A stretch of 64,000 bases of DNA, from contig NZ_LT629786.1 of the NCBI RefSeq assembly GCF_900105675.1, positions 1,860,001 to 1,924,000 on the forward strand. The letters run 5' to 3'. This document shows, in pieces, positions 5,231 through 47,527 of this stretch (its first letter is position 1; each line of letters starts with the position of its first letter). This DNA is from Pseudomonas synxantha. Its GTDB lineage: Bacteria > Pseudomonadota > Gammaproteobacteria > Pseudomonadales > Pseudomonadaceae. Under the pieces are notes generated by a model. It saw nothing but the letters and a program-made list of their open reading frames with translations. It made no database searches and was not told the origin of the DNA. Made by a program: the position numbers and the translations under genes.

Positions 5231-5652
5231 GTGGGAGGGGGCTTGCCCCCGATGGTGGCCTTGGGGCCGACCAGGATGTTGGATCAGATCGAGTACATAT
5301 CCATTGCTGCGGTAACGGCCACTTAGGGGTCCGCTCTGACAGCGGCTCACTTTTGGAAGGACCGGAATGCCGGCCCAGCCAAAAGTAAGCAAAAGGTCCT
5401 CGCCCCACCACTCGGCACCTCGCTTAGGCTCGGTGTACCCGTAATCCGCCAGGGATTTGGGCGGCTAAACCGGCATCCCTGCCGGTTTACCCCCCAAATC
5501 CCTGTCGAATTCCGGCCAGCGTGGTTTAACGGGGCGCCTAAGATCAAAAGCAGATCAAGATCAAGAGCGACTCGCTGCGCATCGTGGTTACGGTCGGCTG
5601 CTACAAAGTTGTGTAGATACCCGTGCTCATCGGCGGCGAGCCCCTACATTGG
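5231..5652. repeat. Long REP-flanked structured repeat, copy 1
   Basis: This 422-bp stretch without genes starts with a REP half (GTGGGAGGGGGCTTGC), ends with a degenerate REP half, and is matched block by block at 45802-47503. Shared blocks include GATCGAGTACATATCC, AGCGGCTCACTTTTG, CCAAAAGTAAGCAAAAGG, the GCCCCACCACTCGGCACCTCG block, and GTGGTTTAACGGGGCGCCTA followed by AGATCAAAAGCAGATCAAG. In the middle is a nested hairpin: 12-bp perfect outer arms at 5450-5461 and 5493-5504, and 9-bp perfect inner arms around a TCCC loop at 5467-5488. The arm sequences differ from the second copy although pairing is kept. No open frame with coding character is seen. Likely an amplified non-autonomous element; not an annotated family that I can name with certainty. 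Confidence 0.8.
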
Positions 5653-11904: not shown

Positions 11905-12275
11905 AAGCTGCGGTTAATAATGAAAACCACATTAAAAAATATTATTTCAAAGCGCTGTAAGTAGGTTTTTTCTTACAGGTTTTTATATCTGATTAAAGCT
12001 TAACTATTTTTTCTGTAACTTCGCGTCGATCAGAATCTGGTTAATAGAGTCAACCAGGCCAATGTCTGTGCTGGCAGCTGCTCAATTGCGGCTAATGGTC
12101 GCTGTCGAGGGCACTGCGCATCTGTCCCATGCGCGCGGGCAGCCTGACCATTGCTCAGCTAAGTCTTTGCTTATTCAAGAGAATCCCGGACAATCCGGGC
12201 CTTGTTATGGTCAGGGCGCTGCCTGTCAGGTTTTTCTGACTCGTCCTGGCCGTGTGAATGCGGAGATCCGACCGG
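11905..12275. other. AT-rich intergenic region upstream of sdaC
   Basis: About 370 bases without a credible gene. The first half is AT-rich with T-runs (for example around 11961-12015), the second half has normal GC content. It must hold the divergent promoters for the exported protein on the left and sdaC on the right. I could not pick out a convincing operator or riboswitch. Confidence 0.5.
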
Positions 12276-13553
12276 ATGAATGATCAGGCCAATAGCGTCG
12301 ACGAACGCTATGCAACGACACCTGCAACCCTCACAAGCTGGAGCCGCCAGGACACGACCTGGATGCTTGGGCTGTTCGGTACCGCCATTGGCGCCGGTAC
12401 TTTGTTCTTGCCGATCAACGCGGGCCTGGGGGGCTTCTGGCCACTGGTGATCCTGGCGCTGCTGGCCTTCCCGATGACATTCTTTGCCCACCGTGGGTTG
12501 ACCCGTTTCGTGCTGTCGGGCCGTGAAGGCTCCGATATCACCGATGTGGTCGAAGAGCATTTCGGCATCAAGGCCGGTGCGCTGATCACGTTGCTGTACT
12601 TCTTCGCGATCTTCCCGATCCTGCTGATCTACAGCGTGGCCCTGACCAATACCGTCAGCAGTTTCATGGAGTATCAGCTGCACATCATGCCGCCACCCCG
12701 GGCGGTCCTGGCGTTCGTGCTGATCCTCGGCTTGCTGGCCGTGGTGCGTTGCGGCGAGCAGGTGATCGTCAAGGCCATGAGCCTGATGGTGTATCCGTTT
12801 ATCGTCGCCTTGCTGTTCCTGGCCGTGTACCTGGTGCCGCACTGGAACGGTGGCATTCTCAGCACCGCCAGCGAAGTGCCGGCTCCGTCGGCATTGCTTA
12901 ACACGCTGTGGCTCGCGATTCCGGTGATGGTGTTCTCGTTCAACCACTCGCCGATCATCTCGGCCTTTGCGGTGGACCAGAAGCGCCAGTACGGCGCACA
13001 TGCCGAGGAGCGCAGCTCGCAGATCCTGTCCCGCGCGCACCTGTTGATGGTGGCGATGGTGCTGTTCTTCGTGTTCAGTTGCGTGCTGACCCTGTCGCCC
13101 GCGCAGTTGGCCGAGGCGAAGGCGCAGAACTTGTCGATCCTGTCGTACCTGGCCAACCACTTTGACAACCCGACTATCGCCTTCGCTGCGCCATTGATTG
13201 CGTTCGTGGCGATTGCCAAGTCGTTCCTGGGCCACTACATCGGTGCCAGCGAGGGCCTCAAGGGCCTGGTGGTCAAGACCGGTCGCCGCCCGGCACCGAA
13301 GACCCTGGACCGCATGACCGCCGCCTTCATGCTGGTGGTGTGCTGGATCGTCGCCACGCTCAACCCGAGTATCCTCGGCATGATCGAGACCCTGGGTGGG
13401 CCGGTGATTGCGTCGATCCTGTTCCTGATGCCGATGTACGCGATCCGCAAGGTGCCGGCCATGGCCAAGTATCGCGGGCAGGCTTCGAATGTGTTTGTTA
13501 CGGCAGTCGGCTTGATTGCCATTACGGCATTGGTCTATTCGCTGATTGCCTAA
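12276..13553 (+). CDS. sdaC: Serine/proton symporter of the HAAAP family
   Basis: A 425-residue inner-membrane permease closely resembling Escherichia coli SdaC, which imports serine with protons. Shared segments include TTWMLGLFGTAIGAGTLFLP, FPMTFFAHRGLTRFVLSG, ITDVVEEHFGIKAG, PVMVFSFNHSPIISAF, LSILSYLANHFDNP and NPSILGMIETLGGP. About eleven hydrophobic helices are present. The start at 12276 is preferred over 12258 because GGAG lies upstream and the family starts here. No serine dehydratase gene is adjacent. The last roughly 50 bases of the gene recur in degenerate form in every unit of the downstream tandem array. Confidence 0.92.
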   Translation: MNDQANSVDERYATTPATLTSWSRQDTTWMLGLFGTAIGAGTLFLPINAGLGGFWPLVILALLAFPMTFFAHRGLTRFVLSGREGSDITDVVEEHFGIKAGALITLLYFFAIFPILLIYSVALTNTVSSFMEYQLHIMPPPRAVLAFVLILGLLAVVRCGEQVIVKAMSLMVYPFIVALLFLAVYLVPHWNGGILSTASEVPAPSALLNTLWLAIPVMVFSFNHSPIISAFAVDQKRQYGAHAEERSSQILSRAHLLMVAMVLFFVFSCVLTLSPAQLAEAKAQNLSILSYLANHFDNPTIAFAAPLIAFVAIAKSFLGHYIGASEGLKGLVVKTGRRPAPKTLDRMTAAFMLVVCWIVATLNPSILGMIETLGGPVIASILFLMPMYAIRKVPAMAKYRGQASNVFVTAVGLIAITALVYSLIA

Positions 13554-15378
13554 GGCCTGACACAGCCTGCAAGGACTACACAGATTCAAATGTGGGAGGG
13601 GGCTTGCCCCCGATAGCGGTGTATCAGTCGCCCATCAATTGACTGAGCCACTGCTATCGGGAGCAAGCCCCCTCCCACAGTTGTTTGGTGGTGGTGTTGA
13701 CGCCGAAGTACAGCCTGGTTGGTGTTTCCGCTGCTTGCTCAAGGCCTGACACAGCCTGCAAGGACTACACAGATCCAAATGTGGGAGGGGGCTTACCCCC
13801 CGATAGCGGTGTATCAGTCGCCCATCAATTGACTGAGCCACTGCTATCGGGAGCAAGCCCCCTCCCACAGTTGTTTGGTGGTGGTGTTGACGCCGAAGTA
13901 CAGCCTGGTTGGTGTATTCGCTGATTACTCAAGGCCTGACATAGCCTGCAAGGGCTAAGCAGATCCAATGTGGGAGGGGGCTTGCCCCCGATAGCGGTGT
14001 ATCAGTCGCCCATCAATTGACTGAGCCACTGCTATCGGGAGCAAGCCCCCTCCCACAGTTGTTTGGTGGTGTTGCTGATGCCGAATTACAGCCTGGTTGG
14101 TGTATTCGCTGATTGCTCAAGGCCTGACATAGCCTGCAAGGGCTAAGCAGATCCAATGTGGGAGGGGGCTTGCTCCCGATAGCGGTATATCAGTCACCCA
14201 TCAATTGACTGAGCCACTGCCATCGGGAGCAAGCCCCCTCCCACAGTTGTTTGGTGGTGTTGCTGATGCCGAATTACAGCCTGGTTGGTGTATTCGCTGA
14301 TTGCTCAAGGCCTGACACAGCCTGCAAGGACTACACAGATCCAAATGTGGGAGGAGCTTGCCCCCGATAGCGGTGTATCAGTCACCCATCAATTGACTGA
14401 GCCACTGCTATCGGGAGCAAGCCCCCTCCCACAGTTGTTTGGTGGTGTTGCTGATGCCGAATTACAGCCTGGTTGGTGTATTCGCTGATTGCTCAAGGTC
14501 TGACACAGCCTGCAGGGACTACACAGATCCAAATGTGGGAGGGGGCTTGCTCCCGATAGCGGTATATCAGTCACCCATCAATTGACTGAGCCACTGCCAT
14601 CGGGAGCAAGCCCCTTCCCACAGTTGTTTGGTGGTGTTGCTGATGCCGAATTACAGCCTGGTTGGTGTATTCGCTGATTGCTCAAGGCCTGACATAGCCT
14701 GCAAGGGCTAAGCAGATCCAATGTGGGAGGGGGCTCGCCCCCGATAGCGGTGTATCAGTCACCCATCAATTGACTGAGCCACTGCTATCGGGAGCAAGCC
14801 CCCTCCCACAGTTGTTTGGTGGTGGTGTTGACGCCGAAGTACAGCCTGGTTGGTGTATTCGCTGATTGCTCAAGGCCTGACACAGCCTGCAAGGACTACA
14901 CAGATCCAAATGTGGGAGGGGGCTTGCCCCCGATAGCGGTGTATCAGTCACCCATCAATTGACTGAGCCACTGCTATCGGGGGCAAGCCCCCTCCCACAG
15001 TTGTTTGGTGGTGTTGATGATGCCGAATTACAGCCTGGTTGGTGTATTCGCTGATTACTCAAGGCCTGACATAGCCTGCAAGGGTTAAGCAGATCCAATG
15101 TGGGAGGGGGCTTGCCCCCGATAGCGGTATATCAGTCGCCCATCAATTGACTGAGCCACTGCTATCGGGAGCAAGCCCCCTCCCACAGTTGTTTGGTGGT
15201 GTTGCTGATGCCGAATTACAGCCTGGTTGGTGTATTCGCTGATTGCTCAAGGCCTGACACAGCCTGCAAGGACTACACAGATCCAAATGTGGGAGGGGCT
15301 TGCCCCCGATAGCGGTGTATCAGTCACCCATCAATTGACTGAGCCACTGCCATCGGGGGCAAGCCTCCTCCCACAGTA
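13500..15378. repeat. Ten-unit tandem array of REPIN plus sdaC 3'-end copy
   Basis: Ten units with a period of 188-189 bases fill the sdaC-acnB gap. REP left arms start at 13592, 13781, 13970, 14158, 14347, 14535, 14723, 14912, 15100 and 15289. Each unit contains a REPIN (GTGGGAGGGGGCTTGC arm, GATAGCGGTGTATCAGTC, CATCAATTGACTGAGCCACTG, inverted arm), a TTGTTTGGTGGTG linker, and a stretch that mimics the end of sdaC (TATTCGCTGATTGC). In the repeats the stop codon position reads CTCAAGG instead of CCTAAGG. Two unit subtypes alternate irregularly: GACACAGCCTGCAAGGACTA (189 bp) and GACATAGCCTGCAAGGGCTA (188 bp). Small open frames inside the array are by-products of the copied gene end. Confidence 0.95.
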
Positions 15379-15393
15379 TTACGGGCATAAAAA

Positions 15394-15421
15394 ACGCCGC
15401 GTATCTTGCGATACGCGGCGT
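15394..15421 (-). terminator. Rho-independent terminator of acnB
   Basis: A perfect 12-bp stem (ACGCCGCGTATC with GATACGCGGCGT) around TTGC, followed on the minus strand by a run of six T. It lies about 20 bases after the acnB stop codon and separates acnB from the REPIN array. Confidence 0.92.
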
Positions 15422-15440
15422 CTTTCACATCAACACACCG

Positions 15441-18050
15441 TTAAGCTTGGATCACCGGGATGTTGGCGCTTGCTGCGATCTTGCGGAACTCAGCGATCTG
15501 GTCGAAGTTCAGGTAGCGATAGACGTCGCTGGCCATGGTGTCCAGTTTCGCTGCGTAGCCCATGTACTCTTCGACGGTCGGCAGGCGACCCAGAGTGGAA
15601 GCGACTGCCGCCAACTCAGCCGAAGCCAGGTAGACGTTGGCACCATCACCCAGGCGATTCGGGAAGTTACGGGTCGAGGTCGACACCACGGTCGAATTCG
15701 GCTCTACCCGTGCCTGGTTACCCATGCACAGCGAGCAGCCCGGCATTTCCATGCGTGCGCCAGCCTTGCCGTAGATGCCGTAGTAGCCTTCTTCGGTCAG
15801 CTGATGCGCGTCCATCTTGGTCGGTGGCGACAGCCACAGGCGGGTTGGCAGCTGGCCCTTGACCTGTTCCAGCAGCTTACCGGCAGCGCGGAAGTGACCG
15901 ATGTTGGTCATGCACGAACCGATGAACACTTCGTCGATCTTCTCGCCGGCAACGCTGGACAGCAGACGGGCGTCGTCCGGGTCGTTTGGCGCGCAGAGGA
16001 TCGGCTCGTTGATCTCGGCCAGGTCGATCTCGATGATTTCGGCGTATTCGGCGTCGGCATCGGCTTCCATCAGTTCCGGGTTGGCAACCCAGGCTTCCAT
16101 CGCCTGGGCGCGGCGTTCCAGGGTACGCGCATCACCGTAGCCTTCACCGATCATCCAGCGCAGCAGGGTGATGTTGGAGTTCAGGTACTCGGTGACGGAG
16201 TCCTTGGACAGCTTGATGGTGCAGCCGGCAGCCGAACGTTCGGCCGAGGCGTCGGACAGCTCGAAAGCCTGTTCCAGCGTCAGGTCGTTCAGGCCTTCGA
16301 TTTCCAGGATGCGCCCGGAGAAGGCGTTCTTCTTGCCTTTCTTCTCTACGGTCAGCAGGCCAGCCTGGATCGCGTAGTAAGGAATGGCATGCACCAGATC
16401 ACGCAAGGTGATGCCAGGCTTCATCTTGCCTTTGAAGCGCACCAGGATCGATTCCGGCATGTCCAGTGGCATCACGCCAGTGGCTGCGGCAAACGCGACC
16501 AGGCCGGAACCTGCGGGGAACGAGATGCCCATCGGGAAACGAGTGTGGGAGTCGCCACCGGTACCGACGGTGTCCGGCAGCAGCATGCGGTTCAGCCAGC
16601 TGTGGATGATGCCGTCGCCTGGACGCAGCGATACACCGCCACGGGTCATGATGAAGTCAGGCAGGGTGTGGTGGGTGGTCACGTCGATCGGCTTTGGATA
16701 GGCCGCGGTGTGGCAGAAGGACTGCATCACCAGGTCGGTCGAGAAGCCCAGGCACGCCAGGTCCTTGAGTTCATCACGGGTCATCGGACCTGTGGTGTCC
16801 TGGGAGCCCACGGTGGTCATCTTCGGCTCGCAGTAGGTGCCAGGACGAACGCCTTTGCCTTCTGGCAGGCCGCAGGCCTTGCCGACCATTTTCTGTGCCA
16901 GGGTGAAGCCCTTGCCGGTGTCGACAGGCGCTTCAGGCAGCTTGAACAGGTCGGTAGGGCCCAAGCCCAGTTCGGCACGGGCCTTGTCGGTCAGGCCACG
17001 ACCGATGATCAGCGGGATACGGCCGCCGGCGCGAACTTCGTCCAACAGCACCGGGGTCTTCATTTCGAAGGTGGTCAGGACTTCATCGGTGCCGTGCTTG
17101 CAGACTTTGCCAGCATAAGGGTACAGGTCGATCACGTCGCCCATGTTCATGTTGGTCACGTCGAATTCGATCGGCAGTGCGCCCGCATCTTCCATGGTGT
17201 TGTAGAAGATCGGAGCGATCTTGCTGCCGAAGCAGAAACCGCCGGCACGCTTGTTCGGCACGTAAGGCACGTCGTCGCCGAAGAACCACAGTACCGAGTT
17301 GGTTGCCGACTTACGCGACGAACCGGTACCGACCACGTCACCGACGTAGGCGATCGGGAAGCCTTGGCCGCGCATCTCTTCGATCTGCTTCATCGGGCCG
17401 GTCTTGCCTTGCTCGTCCGGCACGATGCCTTCGCGAGCCATTTTCAGCATAGCCAGGGCGTGCAGCGGGATGTCAGGGCGGGACCAGGCGTCAGGCGCAG
17501 GGGACAGGTCGTCGGTGTTGGTCTCGCCGGTGACCTTGAACACGCGCAGGCTGATCTTGTCGGCCAGGGTAGGGCGGTTACGGAACCACTCGCCGTCAGC
17601 CCAGGACTGGATCACGCCTTTGGCATGCTCGTTGCCATTGCGGGCTTTTTCAGCCACGTCGTGGAACGCATCGAACATCAGCAGGGTGTGCTTGAGCTGG
17701 GCGGCCGCGACGGGCGCCAGGGTGGCGTCGTCCAGCAGCTCGACCAACGTCACGATGTTGTAGCCGCCTTGCATGGTGCCGAGCAGTTCAACAGCGCGTT
17801 TCTTGTCAATCAGGGGGGAAGTGGCTTCGCCCTTGGCCAGGGCAGACAGGAAGCCGGCCTTGACGTAGGCAGCTTCGTCAACGCCCGGTGGAATGCGGTT
17901 GGTGATCAGGTCAACGAGGAATTCTTCTTCGCCAGCCGGAGGATTTTTCAGCAGCTCGACCAGGCCTGCGGTTTGTTCGGCGTTAAGCGGCTGGGGAACG
18001 ATACCCAGGGCGGCACGCTCTTCGATATGTTTGCGGTAGGCTTCAAGCAC
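15441..18050 (-). CDS. acnB: Aconitate hydratase B (bifunctional aconitase/2-methylisocitrate dehydratase)
   Basis: An 869-residue TCA-cycle enzyme that interconverts citrate and isocitrate via cis-aconitate with a 4Fe-4S cluster. The order is that of AcnB: N-terminal HEAT-like domain ([16 protein letters not shown]), then the swivel domain ([18 protein letters not shown]), then the catalytic domains with [18 protein letters not shown] and the cluster cysteines in SFCHTAAYP and [12 protein letters not shown]. The start is taken as GTG at 18050 ([16 protein letters not shown]) because a GAGGG ribosome site lies 8 bases upstream and this gives the standard family length; the ATG further upstream adds nine residues without family support. 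Single gene with its own terminator and a long inverted repeat upstream. Confidence 0.95.
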
Positions 18051-18162
18051 AGTTATTACCCTCATCAGTGGTCCCACGGGACGCTCATCCAGGCATGAAC
18101 GGCACGCATGCGCTCGGGGGCTTTTTGAGCCGCAAAGCCAGCGCTGCCGTCATTCCTTTACA

Positions 18163-18298: not shown

Positions 18299-18446
18299 CA
18301 GCGGATTATTGGCGCCTTACAAGGCCGGGTGATTCTACGGCAAAAAAAATCTAAAGGTAAGTTGCCTGTCCAAGTTTGCTGGGTGATCAACCTTAGACAA
18401 AGGGCTAACATGGCGCACTGTTTCGCTGATTTGCGTGTTGTTGACC

Positions 18447-18917
18447 ATGCCCAACCAAACCATCAAGACCCCCTGCGTCGGCCTGTGCTCCACGGTCTAC
18501 GGCGATCTCGTGTGCCGCGGCTGCAAGCGCTTCCACCACGAAGTGATCCAGTGGAACGGCTATAACGAAGAGGAAAAACGCGCAGTCTGGCGCAGGCTTG
18601 AGCAACTGCTGGTGCAGGTCATGGCCGGCAAAGTGGAGGTCTTCGACCCCAAGACCCTGCGCGGGCAGTTGGAGCAACGCAAGATTCGCTTTGTGCCGCA
18701 CCAATCCGAGTACTGCTGGGCCTACCAACTGATTGCGCGCGGGGCGCGGGTGATCAACAACCTGGAGGCGTATGGAATGGTGCTGTTGCCGGAGTTTCGC
18801 GATTGGCCCTTGCCGGACCTGCGCGATGCCATTGATCGGGAGTTCTTTATCTTGTCCGAGGCGCATTACCAGCGCTATATCGCGCCGGGGTTCCTGAGAG
18901 ATGCGCTGTCTACCTGA
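18447..18917 (+). CDS. DUF1289-domain protein
   Basis: A 156-residue cytoplasmic protein. Residues about 7-35 form the DUF1289 signature: TPCVGLCSTVYGDLVCRGCK followed by RFHHEVIQW, with four cysteines able to bind a metal or iron-sulfur cluster. The remaining two thirds are longer than the minimal family and contain LRGQLEQRKIRFVPHQSEYC and a C-terminal IDREFFILSEAHYQRYIAPG. Function in the literature is not established to my knowledge. The start at 18447 is preferred over 18435 because the family begins close to the cysteine motif. It diverges from acnB; a REPIN follows its stop. Confidence 0.85.
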   Translation: MPNQTIKTPCVGLCSTVYGDLVCRGCKRFHHEVIQWNGYNEEEKRAVWRRLEQLLVQVMAGKVEVFDPKTLRGQLEQRKIRFVPHQSEYCWAYQLIARGARVINNLEAYGMVLLPEFRDWPLPDLRDAIDREFFILSEAHYQRYIAPGFLRDALST

Positions 18918-47193: not shown

Positions 47194-47527
47194 AAAAGCC
47201 CAAAAGTAAGCAAAAGGCTCTTGCCCCACCACTCGGCACCTCGCCCAGGCTCGGTGTGCCCTCACTCCGGTTTGAATCCGTGGGCCGCCGTCATGGGCCA
47301 TCCCTGGCCCAGGACGGCTAACCCGGCGTCCTGCCGGGTTACCCCACGGCTTCAAGCCTGCGTTCGGCCAGCGTGGTTTAACGGGGCGCCTAAGATCAAA
47401 AGCAGATCAAGATCAAGAGCGGCTCGATGCGCATCGTGGTTACCGTTGACTGCTGAAAAGTTGTGTAGATACCCATGCTCTTCGGGGGCAAGCCCTCTCC
47501 CACATTTGGATTGGGTGCACCCAGCAA

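Follow-up and report, generated by a model that had tools for sequence, protein, structure and literature searches.

The window, a 64,000-nucleotide stretch of a Pseudomonas synxantha genome assembled as a single contig of 6.84 Mb, contains a tandem array between the serine/threonine transporter gene sdaC on its left (TIGR00814) and the convergent aconitase gene acnB on its right (TIGR00117), the position at which the initial annotation had placed ten tandem REPINs. TRF described positions 13530–15377 as a repeat of period 188 with 9.8 copies and 94% matches, and ten REPIN centres together with ten unit anchors confirmed ten units at 13527–15378 in this one assembly, each 188–190 bp long except the last, which is cut (Table 1). 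Successive anchors are spaced 189, 190, 188, 188, 188, 189, 188, 189, and 188 bp apart and the final unit measures 155 bp: the period of 188–189 bp first noted holds for most units, with the 190-bp unit and the short last one departing from it. Each complete unit runs from 24 nt of the sdaC end through a leader (37 nt in unit 1) and a REPIN of ~88 bp to a flank of 38 nt. The apparent acnB terminator beyond the array was absent from the output of the terminator scan; an element similar to it also lies 3′ of the REPIN in relatives.

Table 1. Features of the sdaC–acnB locus (positions are those of the window).
Feature	Position	Strand	Remarks
sdaC, serine/threonine transporter	12258..13553	+	TIGR00814 above cut-off; last 24 nt (13530–13553) form the coding part of the repeat unit
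Unit 1	13527..13715	+	Genuine sdaC end, stop TAA, 37-nt leader, REPIN at ~13591–13679, downstream flank
Unit 2	13716..13905	+	sdaC-tail copy with CTCAAGG
Unit 3	13906..14093	+	
Unit 4	14094..14281	+	RNA fold −100.1 kcal/mol, z −8.73
Unit 5	14282..14469	+	
Unit 6	14470..14658	+	
Unit 7	14659..14846	+	Mosaic: leader of unit-3/4/9 type, downstream flank of unit-1/2 type
Unit 8	14847..15035	+	
Unit 9	15036..15223	+	
Unit 10	15224..15378	+	Truncated; stops at the REPIN, without most of the downstream flank
Apparent acnB terminator	15388..15424 (approximate)	−	GC-rich hairpin and T run; direct sequence reading
acnB	15441..18077	−	TIGR00117; start codon per ORF tool; convergent with sdaC

The repeated element has the properties by which REPINs are recognized. 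Two inverted REPs with GTGGGAGG..CTCCCAC arms form one full-length hairpin in unit 4, the only unit folded, and a 17-mer core of the element was found, with at most one mismatch, 494 times in forward and 507 times in reverse orientation in genome-wide counts that do not separate out the extragenic share, against 0 for the reversed control. The genome also encodes a REP-associated tyrosine transposase (RAYT) at L280:1429-1884 (NF047646, 148.6 bits against a cut-off of 80), with REPIN-like translations on both sides of the gene as judged by eye from the ORF list; a second Y1_Tnp gene (L279) scores 63.2, under the NF047646 cut-off. Rfam at gathering thresholds gave no match on the array; its one match in the window was a TwoAYGGAY RNA at 47262–47365 on the − strand (44.4 against 43).

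How much of sdaC the unit contains was the point on which the initial annotation needed most correction, having described each unit as a fusion of a REPIN with the last 45–55 bases of the gene. The unit was indeed born at the 3′ end of sdaC and includes some coding DNA, but this part is 24 nt long, the last 7 codons and the stop, since self-BLAST of the array halts at 13530. When the 38 nt that precede it (TTGTTTGGTGGTG...) were compared with sdaC, 154–162 of 500 shuffles scored at least as high as the real sequence for the commoner subtype and 260–344 of 500 for the other. Compared with the flank that follows the REPIN in relatives, the commoner subtype was equalled by 0/500 shuffles for G232, G212, G122, G278, and L054 and by 11/500 for L046, and the other subtype by 0/500 for G212 and L046, 1/500 for L054, and 8–15/500 for G232, G122, and G278. 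Because these 38 nt match the relatives' REPIN flank and not sdaC, the supposed 45–55 bases resolve into 24 gene bases and the REPIN's own downstream flank, and a 45–55-bp copy of sdaC was rejected. Nor is any special fusion needed: relatives have sdaC, a short leader, the REPIN, and the flank in this order as a single copy, and duplication of the segment is enough to produce the unit.

The stop-codon context that is CCTAAGG in sdaC has become CTCAAGG in all nine extra copies (9/9), as had been read from the sequence at the outset, and this common change points to one founder rather than to repeated copying from the gene. Mixing between units had been read from alternating 188/189-bp subtypes: the mixing stands, while regular alternation was dropped, the subtype order AABBAABABA containing 7 runs (P = 0.31). 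In a four-gamete test with gaps scored as a state, 40 of 78 two-state site pairs failed (14 informative sites, units 1–9), and recurrent mutation could explain some of these failures; the pattern supports exchange between units, of which unit 7, with one leader type joined to another flank type, is a mosaic example. Mean pairwise divergence is 0.038 for the sdaC-tail copy, 0.080 for the leader, and 0.040 for the REPIN (units 2–10), and 0.057 for the flank (units 2–9), meaning that the hairpin is no better preserved than the dead gene tail.

G232, G212, and G278 each have a single REPIN between sdaC and acnB with homologous leader, flank, and acnB terminator, and the contigs of G122 and G330 break inside the gap. 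Among the best 80 of 580 named relatives, acnB lay within the stretch in 69, with a gap of <1000 bp in 36 of those 69. Counts of the exact 7-base REP arm, which leave aside other REP classes, gave none in 35 of these gaps, one in 28, two in 4, three in 1, and four in 1. The four-arm locus is that of P. sivasensis L055, whose 2.4-kb gap contains, near acnB, a distinct array with 4.1 copies of 114 bp. The remaining 11 relatives were unresolved; six (L047, L049, L051, L053, L062, and L080) end at a contig edge, so arrays there cannot be excluded. The nearest sdaC DNA among 23 loci compared is just 93% identical, too distant to set limits on when the array arose, and the duplication junction is for this reason blurred with respect to its base-level endpoint and any microhomology.

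Duplication of a single REPIN, divergence of one founder copy, and amplification accompanied by exchange probably account for the array, which to judge from its sequence is most likely a near-neutral by-product. The ancestral sdaC–acnB gap would have held one REPIN, as is seen in several relatives, and the junction suggests that the second unit arose by tandem duplication of ~188 bp, from a point within sdaC 24 nt before its end to one ~38 nt beyond the REPIN. This founder copy would have lost the stop codon, a loss common to all nine extra copies, and unequal exchange or replication slippage, which the long hairpin probably favoured, would then have raised the number of units to ten, with exchange between units producing the mosaics to which the incompatible sites point. 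Lying between two gene tails, with the apparent acnB terminator left in place, the array would have been tolerated. The two named relatives closest in sdaC differ in this gap: by the exact arm motif, L045 has no REPIN of this type and L046 has one, and the former counts against this history.

We regard it as unlikely that the array was selected as a regulatory 3′UTR in which repeated REPIN hairpins block 3′ exonucleases or end transcription from sdaC ahead of a collision with acnB. Unit 4 has a far better fold than shuffled sequences, all nine terminator-like matches in 13400–15500 (9/9) lie on the + strand, one per complete unit, against a shuffle mean of 1.4, the gene pair is convergent, and repeats of this kind have a published tail-repeat-tail bias (PMC2718517). 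One hairpin should suffice for this purpose, however, and the 69 resolved loci have one exact REP arm in 28 cases and none in 35; moreover, the T tails of the terminator-like sites are weak, and the divergence of the hairpin is not below that of the dead gene tail. If transcribed, the array would place up to ten strong predicted hairpins at the 3′ end of sdaC mRNA that could protect or terminate it, and such a role is possible because of the strong unit-4 hairpin and the nine + strand sites.

Direct construction of the array by the RAYT transposase, through repeated excision and re-insertion of REPIN-containing intermediates, is improbable. The genome does encode one such transposase above the NCBIfam cut-off and a second below it, and a model cited in PMC3733652 derives complex REP arrays from alternative processing of circular intermediates, but head-to-tail units, locus-specific non-REP DNA, and endpoints inside genes form the pattern of tandem duplication and not of precise REPIN insertion. 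An assembly artefact, with the copy number inflated or the array misassembled, is very hard to credit: there is only one assembly, and the draft contigs L047, L049, L051, and L062 stop 79–409 bp past the sdaC stop, where the gap is maybe hard to assemble, but the genome is a single contig and the units differ from one another at 2–16 positions over the first 155 columns, hence are not copies of one read.

REPIN arrays also occur elsewhere in this genome. In 100 evenly sampled stretches, which cover 2.0 of the 6.84 Mb, TRF (periods 90–500) detected three further ones of 385 bp × 3.4, 203 bp × 5.9, and 207 bp × 8.0 copies, with REPIN arm counts giving 4, 6, and 8 units, as well as three tandem loci without REP arms. 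The units of these three arrays carry the flank of their own locus and all take in the 3′ end of an adjacent gene. One includes 198 nt from a gene weakly similar to acetyltransferases, another 68 nt from a cystathionine gamma-synthase-family gene (NF005871), and the remaining one 69 nt from a GGDEF gene on one side and 17 nt from a response-regulator-like gene on the opposite side. Two arrays of G212 likewise include gene ends (53 nt of pvdO in one, and 68 nt of an EmrB-type efflux gene plus 31 nt of lpxH in the other), and self-BLAST found no gene end in the unit of an array in G004. Gene-end capture was thus seen in 6 of 7 array loci, those of G212 and G004 having been found outside the systematic sampling. 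In a layout model, a random unit around a REPIN touches coding DNA with probability 0.63 for a gap laid out like that of sdaC in relatives, and with probability 0.98–1.00 for the seven arrays when distances at present array edges, not ancestral gaps, are used; capture was predicted for the G004 array as well, which we counted as a miss. Capture is therefore expected, because the gaps between genes in which REPINs lie are short, and a special mechanism, given probabilities of 0.63–1.00, is not needed.

Several other repeats came to light during this survey. The G004 array (L296:4198-5375) comprises 6.5 copies of 181 bp by TRF, and on its minus strand could encode the end of an unknown protein; when the origin of its spacer was sought in nine genomes, only one gave matches, all of them to the array itself. 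Window positions 5478–5619 and 47365–47471, both near REPINs, are copies of another dispersed repeat, ~76–97% alike to more than 12 other places in the genome sample.

A six-unit 203-bp array with the 3′ end of a PLP-enzyme gene lies at L156:7539-8735 (about G000:C1:1929538-1930734), ~5.5 kb past the right end of the window. Arrays of 3–6 units are present at this PLP-enzyme locus in G000, G232, G212, and G122, not in G278, and in the three relatives the period is 178–179 bp. Divergence between units is 0.089 when both come from one genome (22 pairs) and 0.196 when they come from different genomes (69 pairs). This is only suggestive of concerted change, because a start motif was missed in G232, where two units share a row, and another in G212, where the final unit is omitted, and the last rows are cut. 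The occurrence of these arrays in four genomes could mean persistence under selection, and we count it against the near-neutral account given above.

We also detected a fragment of the sdaC tail 270 kb from the array, outside the window, between SDR-like and MFS-like genes (named by eye). At L014:1422-1662 (about G000:C1:2144632-2144872), one REPIN (A) is followed by an in-frame sdaC end with intact TAA, the leader, and a second REPIN (B). No sdaC tail was present in the corresponding gap of relatives (0/7; L164 and L166–L171, the gap having been extracted from 7 of the 12 searched). BLAST against the window and the sample placed the ten array REPINs as the 2nd to 11th best of 325 hits to REPIN A, self-match excluded, and one other REPIN ranked higher; REPIN B had no such preference for array REPINs within this genome, and its left part together with the tail and leader matches the sdaC–REPIN stretch of G122 at 86% over 117 nt. 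The intact stop and slightly longer sdaC part argue that the fragment does not come from a present extra unit. It may be a piece of an earlier array, where a REPIN precedes the tail, or a single-copy sdaC tail and REPIN may have landed beside a REPIN. By either origin the sdaC tail and a REPIN seem to have moved together in this one case, which suggests that REPIN-linked DNA, perhaps in the form of array fragments, was exported.

A bolder and rather doubtful proposal is that REPIN arrays act as small copy machines, in which duplication captures the tail of a neighbouring gene and ectopic exchange between REPINs exports it, with the remote locus as a caught case; we count against it that no array is required for this order, which would also result if a single-copy sdaC tail and REPIN had landed next to a REPIN already present. 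Of 383 REPIN flanks scanned in the sample, the remote locus having been deliberately included in the pool, 49 had any distant match and 32 had at most two; 19 of these 32 were the sdaC array against the remote locus. One pair from the scan, window 18435–18917 and L186, looks by eye like true paralogues. No second clear exported gene tail was seen among the 32, the 17 flanks with at least three matches falling outside this one-by-one reading. We noticed no account of REPINs exporting gene tails in open-licence PMC text, in searches that did not target export by name.

Tandem clusters of this kind have been described before. Bertels and Rainey (2011; PMC3116915) reported 16 tandem REPIN clusters that include flanking sequence in P. 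fluorescens SBW25, of which the largest spans 700 bp and contains four REPINs and one REP. The array shares with these clusters the head-to-tail arrangement of near-identical REPINs with flanking sequence, and the order of flank, REPIN, and shorter flank in the published legend (Fig. S7) recurs here as the 24-nt tail and 37-nt leader, the ~88-bp REPIN, and the 38-nt flank. It differs in size, with ten REPINs over 1.85 kb against at most four over 700 bp, and in the coding DNA within its unit, which is not mentioned for SBW25 in the parts of that paper considered here. Di Nocera et al. (2013; PMC3733652) described REPIN singletons or dimers in tandem with flanking DNA, and tandem reiteration also for Pseudomonas GTAG-1 repeats; the tandem description is the same, and the analysis of gene ends given here has no counterpart in the portions of their text that we draw on. 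The R0 intergenic repeats of SBW25 (Silby et al. 2009; PMC2718517) are 89 bp long with inverted ends, occur in 612 copies, and belong to a class of intergenic repeats favouring tail-repeat-tail gaps, and the REPIN of ~88 bp between two gene tails resembles them in length and setting. The view that a ten-fold array is unusual therefore holds for its length, which exceeds that of the largest SBW25 cluster, but not for its kind, as shown by the three more gene-end arrays in this genome and by the clusters already published.

The array is thus a long example of a published kind of repeat cluster, plus one unusual remote fragment, in which the order REPIN, sdaC tail with stop, REPIN is an observation new to us. 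This one genome has REPIN arrays at several loci, and the units of those found here take in ends of neighbouring genes because REPINs occupy tight gaps between gene tails. A REPIN-linked gene tail can also turn up far away, and if gene ends are exported by exchange between REPINs, these elements would serve as substrates not only for transposition but also for gene conversion.
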